From Sanghuangporus weigelae (lineage: Eukaryota > Basidiomycota > Agaricomycetes > Hymenochaetales > Hymenochaetaceae): a DNA stretch of 64,000 bases. A program made the translations under genes and the position numbers. Of this stretch, positions 18,675-58,302 are shown piece by piece; within the stretch, counting starts at the first letter, position 1, and each line of letters starts with the position of its first letter. Location: contig CP137318.1 in the NCBI GenBank assembly GCA_033182465.1, forward strand, positions 682,001 to 746,000. The letters run 5' to 3'. The notes under the pieces were generated by a model that was not told the origin of the DNA, did no database searches, and worked only from the letters and a program-made list of their open reading frames with translations.

Positions 18675-20886
18675 ATGAGTGGATATACGAGAGGAGGTGT
18701 ACAGATGGCCTACAGGGCGACGCCAACGCCTATGCCGGCGACTGGCATGTCTGGCTACGCTGCGGCGTCTCAGTACGGCTCTGGATATACTCAGCAGACG
18801 GCGGCGTACGCTCAGCGGATGCCGCAGACTCTGAGGGATGATTATGAAAGTGAGTTATCTCTCCTAATTGCTCTGTGTACTTGACGTATTTCAATACTTC
18901 ATTTTGGTAGGGTGGTACACGGAGCCTACGCCGACAAACCGCATGCTTCTTTCGCTGCGGTCCGGCCTCGACTCGGAAGTCTCGTGGGCGCTTGAACGTC
19001 TTTGTCGACTCAGCTGCAATGATCAGTTCACCTTATCGTCCATCCCGGGTCTTGTTGATGCGCTCTTTGAATGGCCGGAGTGGTATTTAAGCGAATATGG
19101 ACGTGGTTCTTCATCGGAGCAGAAGGGGAAGAGCAAAATGCTGTCGGAAGCCGCTGCTACACCGCTCTTTGCACCTTCTTTCGTTGAGGAGCGTCATCGC
19201 CGATATGCGCTTGAGTCGTTGTTCATCCTACGAAATGCGGCGGTTGGGAATCAGAACGCTTCAGAGCTATCTGCGCATGCAAAGACTCGGCCTCTTATTG
19301 TCAGAGCCTTGGATTCCCTCGACCTGACTACGGACGAGAACACTCAATTCATATTATACTGCCTTGAGTTGCTGCACTGTCTAGCCGGGACCTTTGTCCT
19401 ACCGTCTGCAAATGGTGGCGCCAATGCTCTAAACTTAGTGCCGACGCTGGAACGAATCGCTGGAGACTCGACGAATAGATCTATGATCATGGCATCCTTA
19501 TCTGCTCTCACTCTGCTCTTCAACATCCCGCAAAATATGTCCCACATCAATGAATCTTCTCCGGCCCTGGCAGCGTGCGTTCGCTATCTGCCCCTATACC
19601 AGGATAAGGCACTCGTAGACGCGTGCCTCAACTTTATTTATGCGCATCTTTCCTCTCCACCCATGACGAAGGCCTTTCTTCTGCATCCAGATTTGCCACA
19701 CGTATTGAAGGTGCTTGTCGGATATATACTTTCTCAGCAGGAGAAAGAACTGGCGACACTGGATATTACTGCGCCCGGCCATCAGGTCCCAATCGTAAAA
19801 ACTCAATCTGTGGTAGAAGAGCTAACAGAAGAAGAGCTCGAAAAGCTCGGTGTTCTTTCTGAGCCTGAGCGCTGTTATCAATGGTAGGTACTTCCTTTTA
19901 CTCTCGTCGCGCTTCAATTATCTTATTACGTCTGAAGGCTACACACAGCAATCAAGCCCAGTCCGGAAGAAGAGCTCACACAGGTCGAGTATTGGAATGC
20001 ATACAAGGATGCTTTTACACGGTTCAGCGACCGAGCCCCGCTCTTACCGGCATCGGATGTCATCAAAAATGCTAGCATCGTGTATCCACACGCCCAAGCT
20101 ATGGTTTTGCAGGCCCCTGTTCAGAGGTTCATCATTCGAGGAATCACGAAGCGCACAAAGCTTGTCGTTGTAGAACGTAATGTCTGTCGCTGGGATCGAT
20201 CCCAGTGCCAGGCCGGATCATTGGAGACGCCAGACGAACTTAGGCAGCACGTACGCTCACATCTGGAATCATTACAATCGGAAAACAGCTCGGAGGGCGC
20301 TGACTTTTCGTGCAAATGGGCAACATGCCAGCACTCTGCACCTTCTCTTGCTGCGCTCGTACCGCACGTATGGACACACGTGCCGCTCAAAACAAGTGCT
20401 ACGCCAACTTCAAGCGACCCGGACAAGTTCCCAAAGATCACATTGGCTTCTGCTAACGAACAATATCCTCTTTCTGATGCAACTCAGCGCCTTCCACCGC
20501 CGGATCCCAAGACAGTGGTGCTCTATCCTTTACCATCGCGTGATCCACCCTCAGGCTCACTTACCGCTTTACTCATTTTACGTACATTATTTCGTGCTTC
20601 CTTCGCATCGTCTGATGCTGCTCCGCGGGTTGACTCAGAACACTTTGGGTTTCCCGGCGTGGTCGAAGAGGCAGATGAACAAGAAATTGCGGCTGCGGCT
20701 ACTGCTGCTGCTGCCAATGCTGCTGCCAACGATGACCAGTTCGAATCGGACAAAGAGAGGGAGCGGAGAGGCCGACGAGCTTTTCTTGAAGTACGACATC
20801 TTATGGAAAGTGTGCAGATAAAGGATCCAGCGCTGATGTCGTGGATATATGAGATGGTCGATCCTGGAGTTAACGGCGCCCAGTGA
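18675..20886 (+). CDS. RSC9: RSC chromatin-remodelling subunit, Rsc9-like
   Basis: 698-residue nuclear protein. Exons: 18675..18849, 18911..19883, 19938..20886 (phases 1 and 2). After a Tyr/Gln/Ala-rich N-terminus of 58 residues comes RWYTEPTPTNRMLLSLRSGL then DSEVSWALERLCRL, the opening of the Rsc9/ARID2 armadillo-like region, followed by long helical repeats. Near the C-terminus are two C2H2-type fingers (starting CRWDRSQC and CKWATCQH, each ending in an HxxxH), as in Rsc9 and ARID2. An ARID domain is not visible. The acceptor of exon 3 must be the AAG at 19937; the later CACAG would shift the frame. Rsc9 acts in the RSC nucleosome remodeller; an Rsc4-like gene lies 27 kb away in this window. 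Confidence 0.8.
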
Positions 20887-51601: not shown

Positions 51602-53892
51602 ATGACGATTAATGAGGGCAATCCGTACGAGGAAAAAAGCCTTCTAAGCCAAATTGAGGATGCGACTGGTCTGCAGAATGGCGAACTGGAGCAGGCGACC
51701 AATGATAACCGACCAAGGCTCCGCGGAAGAACTTTGACGTATACCCTTGCCTTTGTCGCTGGAACAGGATTCACTCTATTTGGGTTCGTAGTGTCCCTAC
51801 TATGGGTATTTCACGTCATCTGAACCGGCTTGGTGTTAATTCTCTAAGCTATGACCAAGGGGTTATGTCTGCACTCTTAACTGCAAACCAGGTAAGCGCT
51901 ATCACTACATCTACGTCCAATGCATTGTAAATGCTCACCAAGGCACGCAGTTTGAAAAGGTGTTTCCTCAAGTAAACACCGACTCGCACCCAAATCACGC
52001 AACGCTTCAAAGCTTTGTTGTTGCGATCTATGTATGCGCGAATATAAGCTCGCGCTTGGGTATCCACTTACAGATAATCGATTTTTTAGGAAATTGGATG
52101 CCTGATTGGAGCATTATCGAATTTGTGGGTCGGCGATAAGCTCGGACGAAGGAAAACCATCGTCCTCGGTGGCTGCATCATGATCATTGGTGCCATTCTG
52201 CAGACGGCATCGATTAGCTATGCAATGCTCGTAGTAGCTCGTATTATCACAGGTCTTGGCAATGGTATTAACGTAAGTGTTAAGGCTTGGAACATGTCAT
52301 CGCCTATTTTCTTCTTTGCATAGACTTCAACTGTTCCATCGTACCATTGTGAATGCAGCCCGGCCACAAAGCGTGGTAGTAACATTATGATAGAAGGAAG
52401 TTTAATTACTCTGGGTATCATGATCTCGTACGTCTCGATCCCATCTGTCCTGTTAAGGTCTTGTCCAGCTGACCACTTCGCTAGCTATGTACGTATACAT
52501 AATGATTTTGGAGGAAACATAAAAGCCATTGCTAATGTCATCGCTGTAGTGGATAGATTTCGCATTGTGAGAAATCGACGCTTCATTCCATGTTTCCCTA
52601 CTTACATAGCATCCAGCTTCTTTGTGTCCGGGAGCACAGCGCAATGGAGGGTTCCTATTGCGTTTCAAATCATCCTAGCGCTGATAATGATTGTTGGAAT
52701 TGGTTTCGTGAGTTCATTACTGTTTCCGTTGGTCCTAAAAGTTCAAAGATAAATTAGTTGCCGGAGTCTCCTCGGTGGCTCGTCAAGCATGGTCGACATG
52801 CGGAGGCTCTCTCTGTTATTTGCGCACTAGACGATAAGGACATTTCAGACCCGGAGGTCCAGCACACTTATATTGCCATCCACGAGACCGTTGTTGCAGA
52901 AGGAGGTTTTGGATCGGAGTCAACCAACCTCAGCGAACTCTTCACGCACGGCCGTAGTCAGAACTTCCGTAGAGCTGCTCTTGCAGTTACGTCTCAATGC
53001 TTTCAACAGATTACGGGTATCAATATCATCACGTACTACGCGGTATGTTCTTGCTACTGTGCATCGTTGACATGAGCTCATCGAAGTACCATAGACAATC
53101 TTATTCCAGCGACTTGGTCTTTCGGATATCAATTCACGAATTGTAGCCGCCTGTAATGGGACCGAATACTTCCTCGCCAGTCTCATCGCTATCTTTATTA
53201 TCGAGCGCGTCGGTCGGCGGAGACTAATGCTGTACAGCGCGGTCGGTCAGACTATCACTATGATCTTACTGGCGATCCTAGGGAGCATCAATAACTCGGT
53301 CGCTCAGGTCATCTCCTGTGTACTTCTCTTTGTCTTCAACTCGATCTTCGCACTCGGTTGGTTGGGCATGACTTGGCTTTACGTATGTTCTTTCCGGGTA
53401 CTTTGTTAATCACTTCTGAATTTTGTTACTATATAGCCTGCTGAAATAGTCGGACTGCGTATCAGAGCACCTGCTAATGCCCTAAGTACAGCGTCCAACT
53501 GGATTTTCAATTTCATGGTCGTTATGGTCACCAGTCCTTCTTTCGAGAACATATCCTGGGGTACCTACATCGGTAAGCTATATCTTTATCATGAACATAT
53601 TCCTGTTCCTGAGTAAACAAATCCAGTCTTCGCCTCCCTGAACGCTTTCATATTTCCGATTGTATACTTTTTCTTCCCGGAGACTGCTGGGCGTTCTCTA
53701 GAGGACATGGATGTCGTCTTCGCGCTTGCACATAATGAAGGCGTGTCTCCGGTGAAAGTTTCGCTCCGGAAGGACGTCCCACCTGCTGGATCACGCGAGG
53801 CGGACGTTATACTCGGAATATCAGATGGTTCGGCACGTAAGAAAGATGAATCATCTGTCATTATTCAGGACGAGAAACGACGGGAAGATTAG
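51602..53892 (+). CDS. MFS sugar/H+ symporter
   Basis: 559-residue plasma-membrane hexose-type transporter with twelve helices. Twelve exons: 51602..51783, 51849..51891, 51951..52031, 52090..52272, 52324..52427, 52485..52488 (4 nt), 52550..52566, 52617..52707, 52758..53042, 53095..53382, 53437..53572, 53627..53892; all phases fit. Signatures: GYDQGVMSALL, LWVGDKLGRRKTIVLGG, PESPRWLVKHGR, QQITGINIITYY, IERVGRRRLML, PAEIVGLRIRAPANALSTASNW and FPETAGRSLEDMD. The 4-nt exon supplies part of SYWIDF in helix five. The family is typical of sugar uptake next to cell-wall degradation, but it is not adjacent to the GH6 gene. Substrate unknown. Confidence 0.92.
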
Positions 53893-54658: not shown

Positions 54659-56792
54659 ATGGGTTCAAGTATGGCAACCAGCGACGAAAGCAGGCCATCC
54701 CCTCGAAGTGTTCCGCAAAAGGGCGAATTCTGGTGGGCGAACGCCATTTTCTTCGTGGGCGTGCACATCGCGGCTTGCATCGGAGTATACTATAGGCCTG
54801 CATGGACCGTTCCTCGCGCGACTTTGCTATTGGGGATTCTTACTTGGCAGCTTGCGTGCTTTGCGTGCGCGTTGTTTCTATCAGTTTATTGCTAAGGGAA
54901 CGCTTCTCATGTACTGGCGCAGAGTAACGATCGGATACCACCGTTTGTATTCTCATAGAGCTTTCCGTGCTGCCTTCGGTGTCAGGCTCGTCCTATCGTT
55001 GCTCGGATGCATGGCTTTTCAAGGATCAATTAAGGTGAGGCGATCAGGATGTCGTATGCTTTCAAGTATTGACCGTCCAAAATAACTAGTGGTGGTATGC
55101 TTCCATGCGTTTAACAATAAGATTGCTTCATTGACGTGCCGTCAGGTGCCTTAGACACAGGTTGCACCATGTACGTGGCCTTGTTTTCACCATTTTCGGG
55201 TCTCTAATCACTGCACAGAGGTTTACCGATGATCCGGTCCACGATCCGTGAGTTCTGTCGATCACCTCTCGGCACTTTCCTGTCTGTGGAAGCTTATCCT
55301 GCTTCGCATAGGTACTGCGCGACTCGAGGACTTTTCTTCGCGCACGTGGGTTGGATTTTTTACAAGCCCAAGTACGAGAAGATGGGTACTATTGACCGAG
55401 ACGATCTGGAGAATGACCCTGGTATAGGCTACCGTGTGTTCTTCGCATGACTGACATCTAACGAACTCCCCAATAGTTGTGCGCTTCCAGCACAAACACT
55501 ACGGTGAGAGTTTTAATTCATTTATCTAAACGATGGAGAAATAAATGACTGACAGTTACTTTTCAGTTCCACTTGCACTTTTTGCCGGCTTTGTTCTGCC
55601 AACGCTATTGGGACTATTATGGAATGATCCTATTGGTGCCTACATCTATGCTGGTCTCGTTTCAAGAATTGCAAGTGAGTCCCGACTTTACTCAAGCACT
55701 CAAACTGTAAACTTACTCATCTTTTCGTCAAGTCTGGCATTGTACCTTCCTTGTGAACTCGTGAGCAATAACCCCTGCAACGTTGTCGTCTGCGAACTGA
55801 CAAATTACGCTCAGTTTAGCGCATTGGGAAGGTTTGCAGCCATACACGGATGAGAACACTTCTCGAGGAAACTTGGTGAGCTCTACTCACGAGCCTTTTT
55901 TACCGGATTGAAATAACGTCGAAAAGATTCTGGCTTTGCTAACTTGTGGAGAAGGTGCTCATAACTTCGTGAGTGTCGAAAGTTTTTTCTTGCAGTTCCA
56001 TTGGTCATTTACGACTTTTGCTACAGCATGTAAGCGAGTTCTTACGCATTCGCTGCTTTCTTTCTTAATATCACGCTTTCATCAATTCCAGCATGCATTC
56101 CCGCATGACTTCCGAGCGGGGCCGGCTAGGACGAACTGGGATCCGTCCAAATGGATCATCGTCCTCCTTCACCGACTTGGCCTTGCAACCGGGCTGCGTC
56201 GCGCTCGGAATGAAGATGTTAAAGCCGCAGAAGCATGGATGCGATTACACGGTCATCATGTCCCACATATTTCGTTTTGGGATTATACTAGCCTTCAAGC
56301 AAGTAGCGACGAATCGTCTACGGCGGCATCTCAGTCCTCGATGTCCTCCTCTTCTGAAGACGAATCTGAGTGGGACGGACCCGCTTGGGATGAGAGTGCT
56401 TTGCGAAGCTACGTCGCAGAGAAACCTGGACGGTGTGTTGTACTCCTGGATGGGTATGCGATTGACGTTACACGATATCTTGGAGAACATGTACGTTTCC
56501 TTCCTTTTGGTTCGCGACTTGACATTCCTCTGACCAATTCTTCGTTTCGTCTTTGTTAATCTAGCCGGGAGGGGCGGTTTTCCTCCGTAAATACTCCGTC
56601 CGAGAACGCGAAACCGATGACTCCTCGAATAAACCTAGTTCAAAGAAGAAAAATGACGAACCATCGGCGAAGAACTTGCACGACCTGGCACGAGAAACGT
56701 CAGCTGCATTTCATGGCGGGATGAACAAGCATTCCCGCGCTGCGAGGAGGCGGTCACGACAACTCAGAGTCGCGAGAGTTGTCTTGGGATGA
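54659..56792 (+). CDS. OLE1: acyl-CoA delta-9 desaturase with C-terminal cytochrome b5
   Basis: 460 residues from fourteen exons: 54659..54864, 54923..55034, 55090..55094 (5 nt), 55146..55170, 55219..55247, 55312..55421, 55477..55503, 55567..55674, 55733..55760, 55815..55875, 55927..55968, 56027..56029 (3 nt), 56092..56490, 56565..56792. All phases close. Di-iron histidine boxes: GYHRLYSH, RHRLHHRF and EGAHNFHHAFP. Also QGSIKWW, FFAHVGWIF and the b5 haem segment GEHPGGAVFL near the C-terminus (the second haem His is in AFHGGMNKHS). Inserts oleate-type double bonds in the ER membrane. A Ser/Glu-rich linker joins desaturase and b5 parts. Box 3 is complete only if the 3-nt exon is used. Confidence 0.9.
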
Positions 56793-57102
56793 AGGGATGG
56801 AAAGGATGATGGACAGGTGTCCGAATCTGAATCGAATGTATGATAGTTTAAAGAAGGAACTTCTCGTTAAAGAAAGGGATATATGCTTATGAATTCACTT
56901 ATGGTTACTTGTCAGCGTAAAGTGATGTGCGCCAGAAGACGAGCGATGACTTGGGACGTTGGGCAGTTGTAGTGTAGTAGCTAACTCCGTAGACGTATCC
57001 TGTATGAACTCTACTTTACTACGTAAAAGAACGAACTTATTTTCCCACCTTGCCTAGCCTAAGCCTGATTCAACTTACATACCATATCCACGTATGCTTG
57101 CT
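56793..57102. other. convergent intergenic
   Basis: 310 bp of 3' flanks of the desaturase (+) and CutC (-). Nothing recognised. Confidence 0.5.
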
Positions 57103-58302
57103 TTATTCCATTTCACTATCCACAATCACCCTTACTCCGCGCACTGCATCCGTGCTTGTACGCCAAATACCCCACTCGCCCGCACCGCCGACTCCCATAC
57201 CCATACCTTCCGGTCTGTACTGCATCGTAGACTCGACGAATCCACCACCGCTCATATGTATTGATCTTACGCATCTAAACGGCATGAGGGCGCGCAAGAT
57301 TGGACTTATGGTGCTGGAGTGAATACCAGAGCCGGGCATTATCTCTATTTCTGCTCTCTGGTTTCTGAGTACTTGCGATGCTCCAGGATCGGGTTCAAGG
57401 GATGTGCAAAGTGATGCGAGTGACGGAAGGCCTAGGGATACAGACGGTTCTCCGCCGCTAGGAGAAGATAAAGTTGCAAGTAATGGTAAATGCTAAGTAC
57501 AGTATATATTTAGAAATAAAGGGCATACCTGGTGAGGATTCGGTTTATAACTGAAATCTTACAGAGCTCGGATAAAGCTATTGTTCCTGATTAGTACTAG
57601 CTGTGTAGTTCTGAGAAGATAAAGAAACGCAAGGATTGAGTCAACAGTAGTTAGGCATATGCACCTTCTTTCTGGTCGACGACCATATCGAAAGCGCGAT
57701 GAAAACAGACTACATCGAATAAATTTGAGTTCTGTCAAGCTATTTCTCCTTTTTTAAAAGAAAAAGATCAAACCTTGCAGTCCGCACTTCACAGCTTCGC
57801 TACTAAGCAGGGTCGTTTTCCCGACATCGATACGTCCATCAGGAGTGAGGGCCCCGAACGCTACTCCTGTGATTCCTATTTCTGCGAAGGCTCTTATATC
57901 TTCGAGCATGACAGAGGCTTCGTCAGAGGAATATACAAAGTCTCCCGTACGAGGACGGATCATTGCCTATAGGAATAACATTGACGAAGCTCGACTGGGA
58001 ATGATTCTTATTCGAGGATTATCGGGGACGAACCATCAACTCAATATTTTCAGGACAAGCTTGCTTGATACGGCGTACATGTCCTATACTTGGGGTCGTC
58101 CCACCACCTAGAGTGAGGTTCCCACATATCTCGAGACGGTCTGCTCCACCTTCTACCGCGCTTATTATTTATTTATTCGAAAGAAGGTACATAGAGCCCG
58201 TTAATCGCGGATGTTATTGAAATATAAAGAGATCGTACTGAATACTGACGCGAGAGCAGATTCGACGGAGTCGACGCAGACTTCTATTCTTAATTTCTTC
58301 AT
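57103..58302 (-). CDS. cutC: CutC-family protein
   Basis: 273 residues, TIM-barrel family linked to copper homeostasis, though its biochemical role is unclear. Exons: 58302..58250, 58160..58034, 57966..57774, 57709..57665, 57577..57529, 57457..57103; phases agree. Motifs in order: LRIEVCVDSVESALA, GGADRLEICGNLTLGG, GTTPS, MIRPRTGDFVYS, GVAFGALTPDGRIDV, VCFHRAFDMV, NRILTSGGE, IEIMPGSGI and the C-terminal RPEGMGMG with WRTS. The 57577..57529 exon is easily missed but supplies ALSELCKISVINRILTS. The gene appears intact. Divergent from an F-box gene 288 bp away. Confidence 0.92.

Follow-up and report, generated by a model that had tools for sequence, protein, structure and literature searches.

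In a desaturase gene of Sanghuangporus weigelae, two exons meet at the third histidine box, and joined directly they leave it one histidine short. Where is the missing residue encoded? A first-pass annotation of the window, i.e., the whole stretch of 64,000 nucleotides analysed here, had assigned it to an exon of just three nucleotides, CAT. Judging from sequence comparison, we consider it highly likely that CAT is a 3-nt coding exon, constitutive and conserved from ancient times, which this desaturase paralogue shares across the Agaricomycetes.

A desaturase gene with a divided third histidine box

The gene model was read by hand from the window and checked by translation. It comprises 14 exons and 13 introns of 48–74 nt and yields a protein of 460 aa when both of its microexons are used. 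The features that matter here are the following:

54659-56794, + strand: acyl-CoA (stearoyl-CoA-type) desaturase gene with a C-terminal cytochrome b5-like part, predicted from homology and profile scores
54923-55034, + strand: exon 2, with box 1, HRLYSH (gene model)
55090-55094, + strand: 5-nt exon TGGTG, coding for WW(C) immediately ahead of box 2 (HRLHH)
55146-55170, + strand: exon 4, with box 2, HRLHH (gene model)
55927-55968, + strand: exon 11, ending in ...GEGAHNF, with the first His of box 3 (gene model)
55969-56026, + strand: intron upstream of CAT, 58 nt, GTGAGT...CTACAG
56027-56029, + strand: very probable 3-nt exon, CAT, for the second His of HxxHH (layout, splice scores, relatives)
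56030-56091, + strand: intron downstream of CAT, 62 nt, GTAAGC...TTCCAG
56092-56490, + strand: exon 13, its first codon being the third box-3 His (CAT GCA TTC CCG)
56565-56794, + strand: last exon, opening with PGG of the HPGG motif (gene model, PF00173)

By homology and by its histidine boxes, the predicted product is an SCD/Ole1-type acyl-CoA desaturase. The model matches the solved SCD1 structure 4ymk_A (E 1.1e-49, residues 16-292) and, with the CAT exon included, the FA_desaturase profile PF00487 (E 2.5e-16, 60.7 bits, cut-off 29.7); all three boxes, HRLYSH, HRLHH and HNFHH, are present when the 3-nt exon is used. The cytochrome b5 profile PF00173 reaches 20.8 bits, which is under its cut-off of 23.7; the cytochrome b5 motif HPGG is found in the sequence, and the same profile scores above cut-off in the relatives P0003 and P0060. 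Two introns of the gene end in AAG (55730-55732 and 55924-55926) instead of CAG or TAG.

Exon 11 ends in GCT CAT AAC TTC, followed by GTGAGT; on the acceptor side of the exon at 56092, TTCCAG is directly followed by CATGCATTC. Re-reading the interval between these sites, we found the triplet exactly as first described, with the AG of CTACAG before it and GTAAGC behind it, and with flanking introns whose lengths are ordinary for this gene. The predicted reading frames hold as well: use of CAT gives HNFHHAFP, and skipping it stays in frame and gives HNFHAFP, with box 3 lacking one histidine.

The splice sites were scored with matrices built from the remaining 11 introns of the gene. Donors of the two CAT-flanking introns reach 8.5 and 8.2 bits (4.2–9.3 in the other 11), and their acceptors 4.7 and 3.5 bits (3.0–6.5 in the other 11). 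No YTRAY branch site was found near the end of the intron 55969-56026, only ACGAC; YTRAY is also missing from four of the other 11 introns.

A splice-flanked CAT might be a chance match, with the histidine coming from elsewhere, e.g., from another acceptor or from RNA editing. The short pattern AG/CAY/GT, flanked by 45 nt or more in both directions, does arise in 0.7% (140 of 20,000) of the dinucleotide shuffles of the 123-nt interval, but the strong form YAG/CAY/GTRNG, which the gene displays exactly where one residue is missing, arises in only 4 of 20,000. In the whole window, both strands included, the strong form has two matches, the CAT exon and one at 20245. Once the outer sites are fixed and neither intron may be shorter than 30 nt, the interval offers three AG..GT inner exons not exceeding 60 nt, and only CAT yields HNxHH; no other enumerated inner exon puts an in-frame second histidine beside the third. 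A coincidence of this kind strikes us as exceedingly improbable.

The other candidates were set aside one by one. An 11-nt inner exon breaks the frame, and the inner exon CGA (Arg, donor GTTCTT) gives no HNxHH. Allowing 25-nt introns brings in three extra inner exons, of which one, 42 nt long and preceded by a 27-nt intron, is in frame; none of the three gives HNxHH. Retention of the full 123 nt keeps the frame open, but 41 added residues would then replace a single histidine. Retention of either intron alone leads to a stop, that of both to an open frame.

As for the role of the residue, HNFHH of the model aligns to HNYHH of the solved SCD1 4ymk_A. A passage in PMC8533217 on a human SCD1 model derived from 4ZYO names His298, His301 and His302 among the restrained active-site residues. 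By alignment and spacing, the histidine encoded by CAT is the putative equivalent of human His301, and skipping of the exon would be expected to entail loss of activity. Shanklin et al. 1994, listed among its references, reportedly speak of eight essential histidines in their title, which would fit such a loss.

Box 3 in relatives and in other desaturases

The orthologue set consists of 136 listed entries, 120 of 802 relatives plus 16 new ones among 120 of 1242 obtained with P0060 as query. It divides into 125 annotated and 11 environmental entries (10 lgn, 1 jgi). The latter are intron-free full-length frames on contigs of 1.4–4.9 kb, and it is for this reason that we treat them as transcript-like. 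All entries are clusters at 90% identity, inside which a skipped member could be hidden. Kept in the counts were the short P0242 and P0249, the partial P0086, repeated genera, and P0087 and P0241, which are identical across the tree columns.

Among the 136 listed orthologues, all 11 transcript-like entries carry HNxHH, versus 22 of the 125 annotated ones (Fisher p 4e-8). The other 103 annotated orthologues show HNxH (80), HNxQH (10), odd inserts (12) or no box at all (1). Not one of the 11 transcript-like relatives, as clusters at 90% identity, has the skipped form. Thus, the claim that CAT is an exon for the box-3 histidine very probably holds, and the relatives appear to share it.

Among the annotated relatives are Sebacinales, Cantharellales, Auriculariales, Gomphales, Geastrales and Hymenochaetales, together with entries which we take to belong to Polyporales, Agaricales, Boletales, Russulales, Gloeophyllales and Jaapiales. 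Each of these orders contains broken box-3 readings, which suggests that the exon is about as old as crown Agaricomycetes. Named Dacrymycete or Tremellomycete rows were absent among the orthologue matches listed. DNA-level relatives were sought by pattern; the scan of viral_contigs gave no match, and that of genome_contigs gave nine, none of them a relative. Since the relatives' genomic DNA was not found in these scans, it is from the protein forms that we infer a 3-nt exon carrying the missing residue in their DNA, too.

The genome of the window contains two further desaturases, on C13 and C4, each with HNFHH inside one exon; in the C4 gene (L014, G000:C4:2479027-2479877) the box reads HNFHHQFP. 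The C13 gene is the canonical fungal Ole1, with P0121 as its kin, in which cytochrome b5 scores above cut-off. It belongs to the same desaturase family as the CAT-exon gene and has the same HNFHH box, but encodes this box in one open frame and falls into a separate group of the tree. As a control, we inspected canonical Ole1 paralogues, taking the best 120 of 6848 (96 annotated and 24 environmental entries): HNxHH is found in 120 of 120.

A quick FastTree tree was calculated from 157 rows, 137 of the CAT-exon gene including the window and 20 of the 120 canonical ones, with the box-3 column included. It sets the two paralogue groups apart with full support. Labelling the rows as HH or broken requires 30 changes on this tree, against a mean of 30.5 for shuffled labels, and 93 of 200 shuffles were as low. 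Clade-specific loss of the histidine was accordingly discarded, as the label carries no phylogenetic signal.

Gene-finder error or splice switch

The deposited forms disagree even between congeners: four Lentinula species have four readings, HH, H, QH and VREHH. Together with the lack of a pattern on the tree, this matches what one expects of gene-finder error. The readings themselves resemble misread splice sites. Of the 12 annotated forms with inserts after HNF, 10 have V (GTN) first (binomial p 5e-11), and in 8 of these 10 the next residue is C, R, S or G (binomial p 2e-4, a loose test, as Ser has further codons besides the donor-derived ones). V-inserts of this kind would be expected if the donor GTRNGY were read as codons, and the QH form of 10 annotated relatives would result from translating the CAG of an acceptor. 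We assume that gene finders usually miss a 3-nt exon because its omission keeps the frame.

The deposited protein nearest to our model is a case in point. S. weigelae ACEPAI_213 (P0001), 459 aa, has the skipped form HNFHAFP. It differs from the model only by the missing histidine and by W300R (numbering without that histidine), and it agrees at all other splice junctions, the 5-nt exon included. The public model, being the protein of the window minus one histidine (bar one Trp/Arg), therefore skips the 3-nt exon. FA_desaturase scores the deposited form at 50.9 bits, compared to 60.7 with the CAT codon. Judged from the relatives, an annotation error is the explanation that the skipped S. weigelae model suggests.

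One could instead take HNFHAFP at face value, as a real and sole product of a paralogue whose metal site was lost or changed. The deposited annotation P0001 says as much, and 80 of the 125 annotated relatives agree with it. Transcript-like relatives, however, read HNxHH in 11 of 11 cases, the broken forms conflict even within one genus, and 130 of the 136 listed orthologues retain box 1 (HR[LM][YW][SA]H), the same number box 2 (HR[LM]HH), so that we find it hardly credible that the skipped form is all this gene makes.

More deserving of discussion is a regulated cassette microexon, whose conditional skipping would leave a stable protein of full length but with a defective metal box and hence turn the enzyme on and off. 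A switch is possible in that skipping stays in frame and retention of both introns is open as well; the rest of the protein would be whole. The number of skipped forms among annotated relatives may be read in its favour, as may reports of alternatively spliced 3-bp microexons in Tuber NLR genes and Drosophila TnT. A counter-case to the error explanation is the model P0086 of Rhizoctonia solani AG-8, which reads HNYHAFP, one histidine short. According to the methods passage of PMC4014442, RNA-seq in this genome project was mapped by TopHat with the microexon search switched on.

Other observations speak against conditional skipping. In strength, the CAT splice sites match those of the other introns, and the deposited forms lack a phylogenetic pattern and include such unlikely readings as QH and VREHH. 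Frame-neutral skipping would leave an intact frame to see, yet no such case turned up among the 11 transcript-like relatives. In addition, any switch of oleate synthesis could be masked by the other desaturases of the genome; with the Ole1 on C13 and the desaturase on C4 present, oleate synthesis need not depend on the CAT-exon gene. The initial suggestion of a splice switch for oleate synthesis thus finds no support here, given the 0 of 11 skipped and the contiguous HNFHH codons of the two other desaturases, and a regulated cassette exon seems to us quite unlikely. A related idea, that the exon has been kept split so that slow or conditional splicing tunes the amount of active desaturase, e.g., with temperature, and full-length inactive protein is still made, we likewise regard as improbable.

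Under the preferred reading, a constitutive 3-nt exon, each short intron (58 and 62 nt) would be recognised as an intron-sized unit. We infer that the two introns are probably removed in succession, as an exon of three bases would hardly have room for splicing factors on both sides simultaneously. The spliced message would then read H-N-F-H-H, with the CAT histidine as the second of the di-iron-binding HxxHH box. The same arrangement would be kept in the CAT-exon paralogue throughout the Agaricomycetes and usually be missed by gene finders.

If this is correct, 103 of the 125 annotated desaturase models examined, i.e., about four in five, lack or garble an active-site histidine which the fungi themselves possess, and whoever clones, models or classifies the enzyme from such faulty models may wrongly judge it dead or odd. 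The CAT exon would also provide a natural test of how the spliceosome of short-intron organisms deals with an exon of three nucleotides. Finally, it points out a way to more such exons, namely to look for conserved residues which are missing from predicted proteins and present in transcripts.

Known microexons and the surroundings of the gene

In the open-licence PubMed Central literature on fungal or 3-nt microexons and on basidiomycete desaturases, we found nothing on the CAT exon. The passages from PMC3990503, PMC4462047 and PMC4014442 mention microexons only as a TopHat setting, and that from PMC11197194 only in a reference. Published examples of codon-sized microexons exist for Tuber and for animals, and hence the kind is already known.

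The closest fungal case are the 3-bp microexons in NLR (NACHT-ANK) genes of Tuber melanosporum (Iotti et al. 2012, as cited in passages of PMC4986451 and PMC10197012). They, too, are codon-sized and reside in a fungal gene. As far as these passages go, however, the NLR genes contain multiple microexons, alternatively spliced and associated with sensor-domain diversity, whereas CAT is a single exon, apparently conserved and always included, that would encode a metal ligand. The 3-nt microexon of Drosophila TnT, described in an excerpt of PMC8042270, is likewise a single codon whose skipping is frame-neutral. In one larval tissue it is left out, which costs the protein a Lys, unlike the CAT exon with its 0 of 11 among transcript-like relatives.

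Plant microexons, according to passages of PMC8831610, are at most 15 nt long, old, usually missed by reference annotation and needed for intact proteins; the wording for the smallest ones is '<3-nt', and APC11 and VPS55 have conserved 1-nt microexons. These passages describe exons which, as CAT appears to be, are tiny, old, coding and missed by annotation. PMC8831610 covers plants only (the words fungi and fungal occur 0 times in its main text), in contrast to the CAT exon, with its metal-ligand codon, in Agaricomycetes. Among basidiomycetes, the P450 genes of Phanerochaete chrysosporium have a shortest exon of 6 bp, according to a section of PMC1184071, and resemble the desaturase gene in their short introns and microexons; unlike for CAT, that section does not describe class-wide conservation of one exon.

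The 5-nt exon of the desaturase gene may be conserved in relatives as well. Of the 136 listed relatives, all 11 transcript-like ones have WW at its place, and so do 98 of the 125 annotated ones; the remaining 27 annotated ones have other residues or a gap there. That this place is annotated correctly more often than the CAT exon (98 versus 22 of 125) is explained by the frame, which omission of the 5-nt exon would break and omission of the 3-nt exon leaves intact.

Downstream, a CutC-family gene (57754-58168, - strand) adjoins the desaturase gene in convergent orientation. In the Mycena kentingensis model P0102, CutC is fused to the same desaturase, which suggests that both are neighbours in M. 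kentingensis too, if differently oriented. Upstream of the desaturase gene lies a sugar transporter gene (52758-53892, + strand), with PF00083 at 52758-53075 and a 3' limit that was set by eye.
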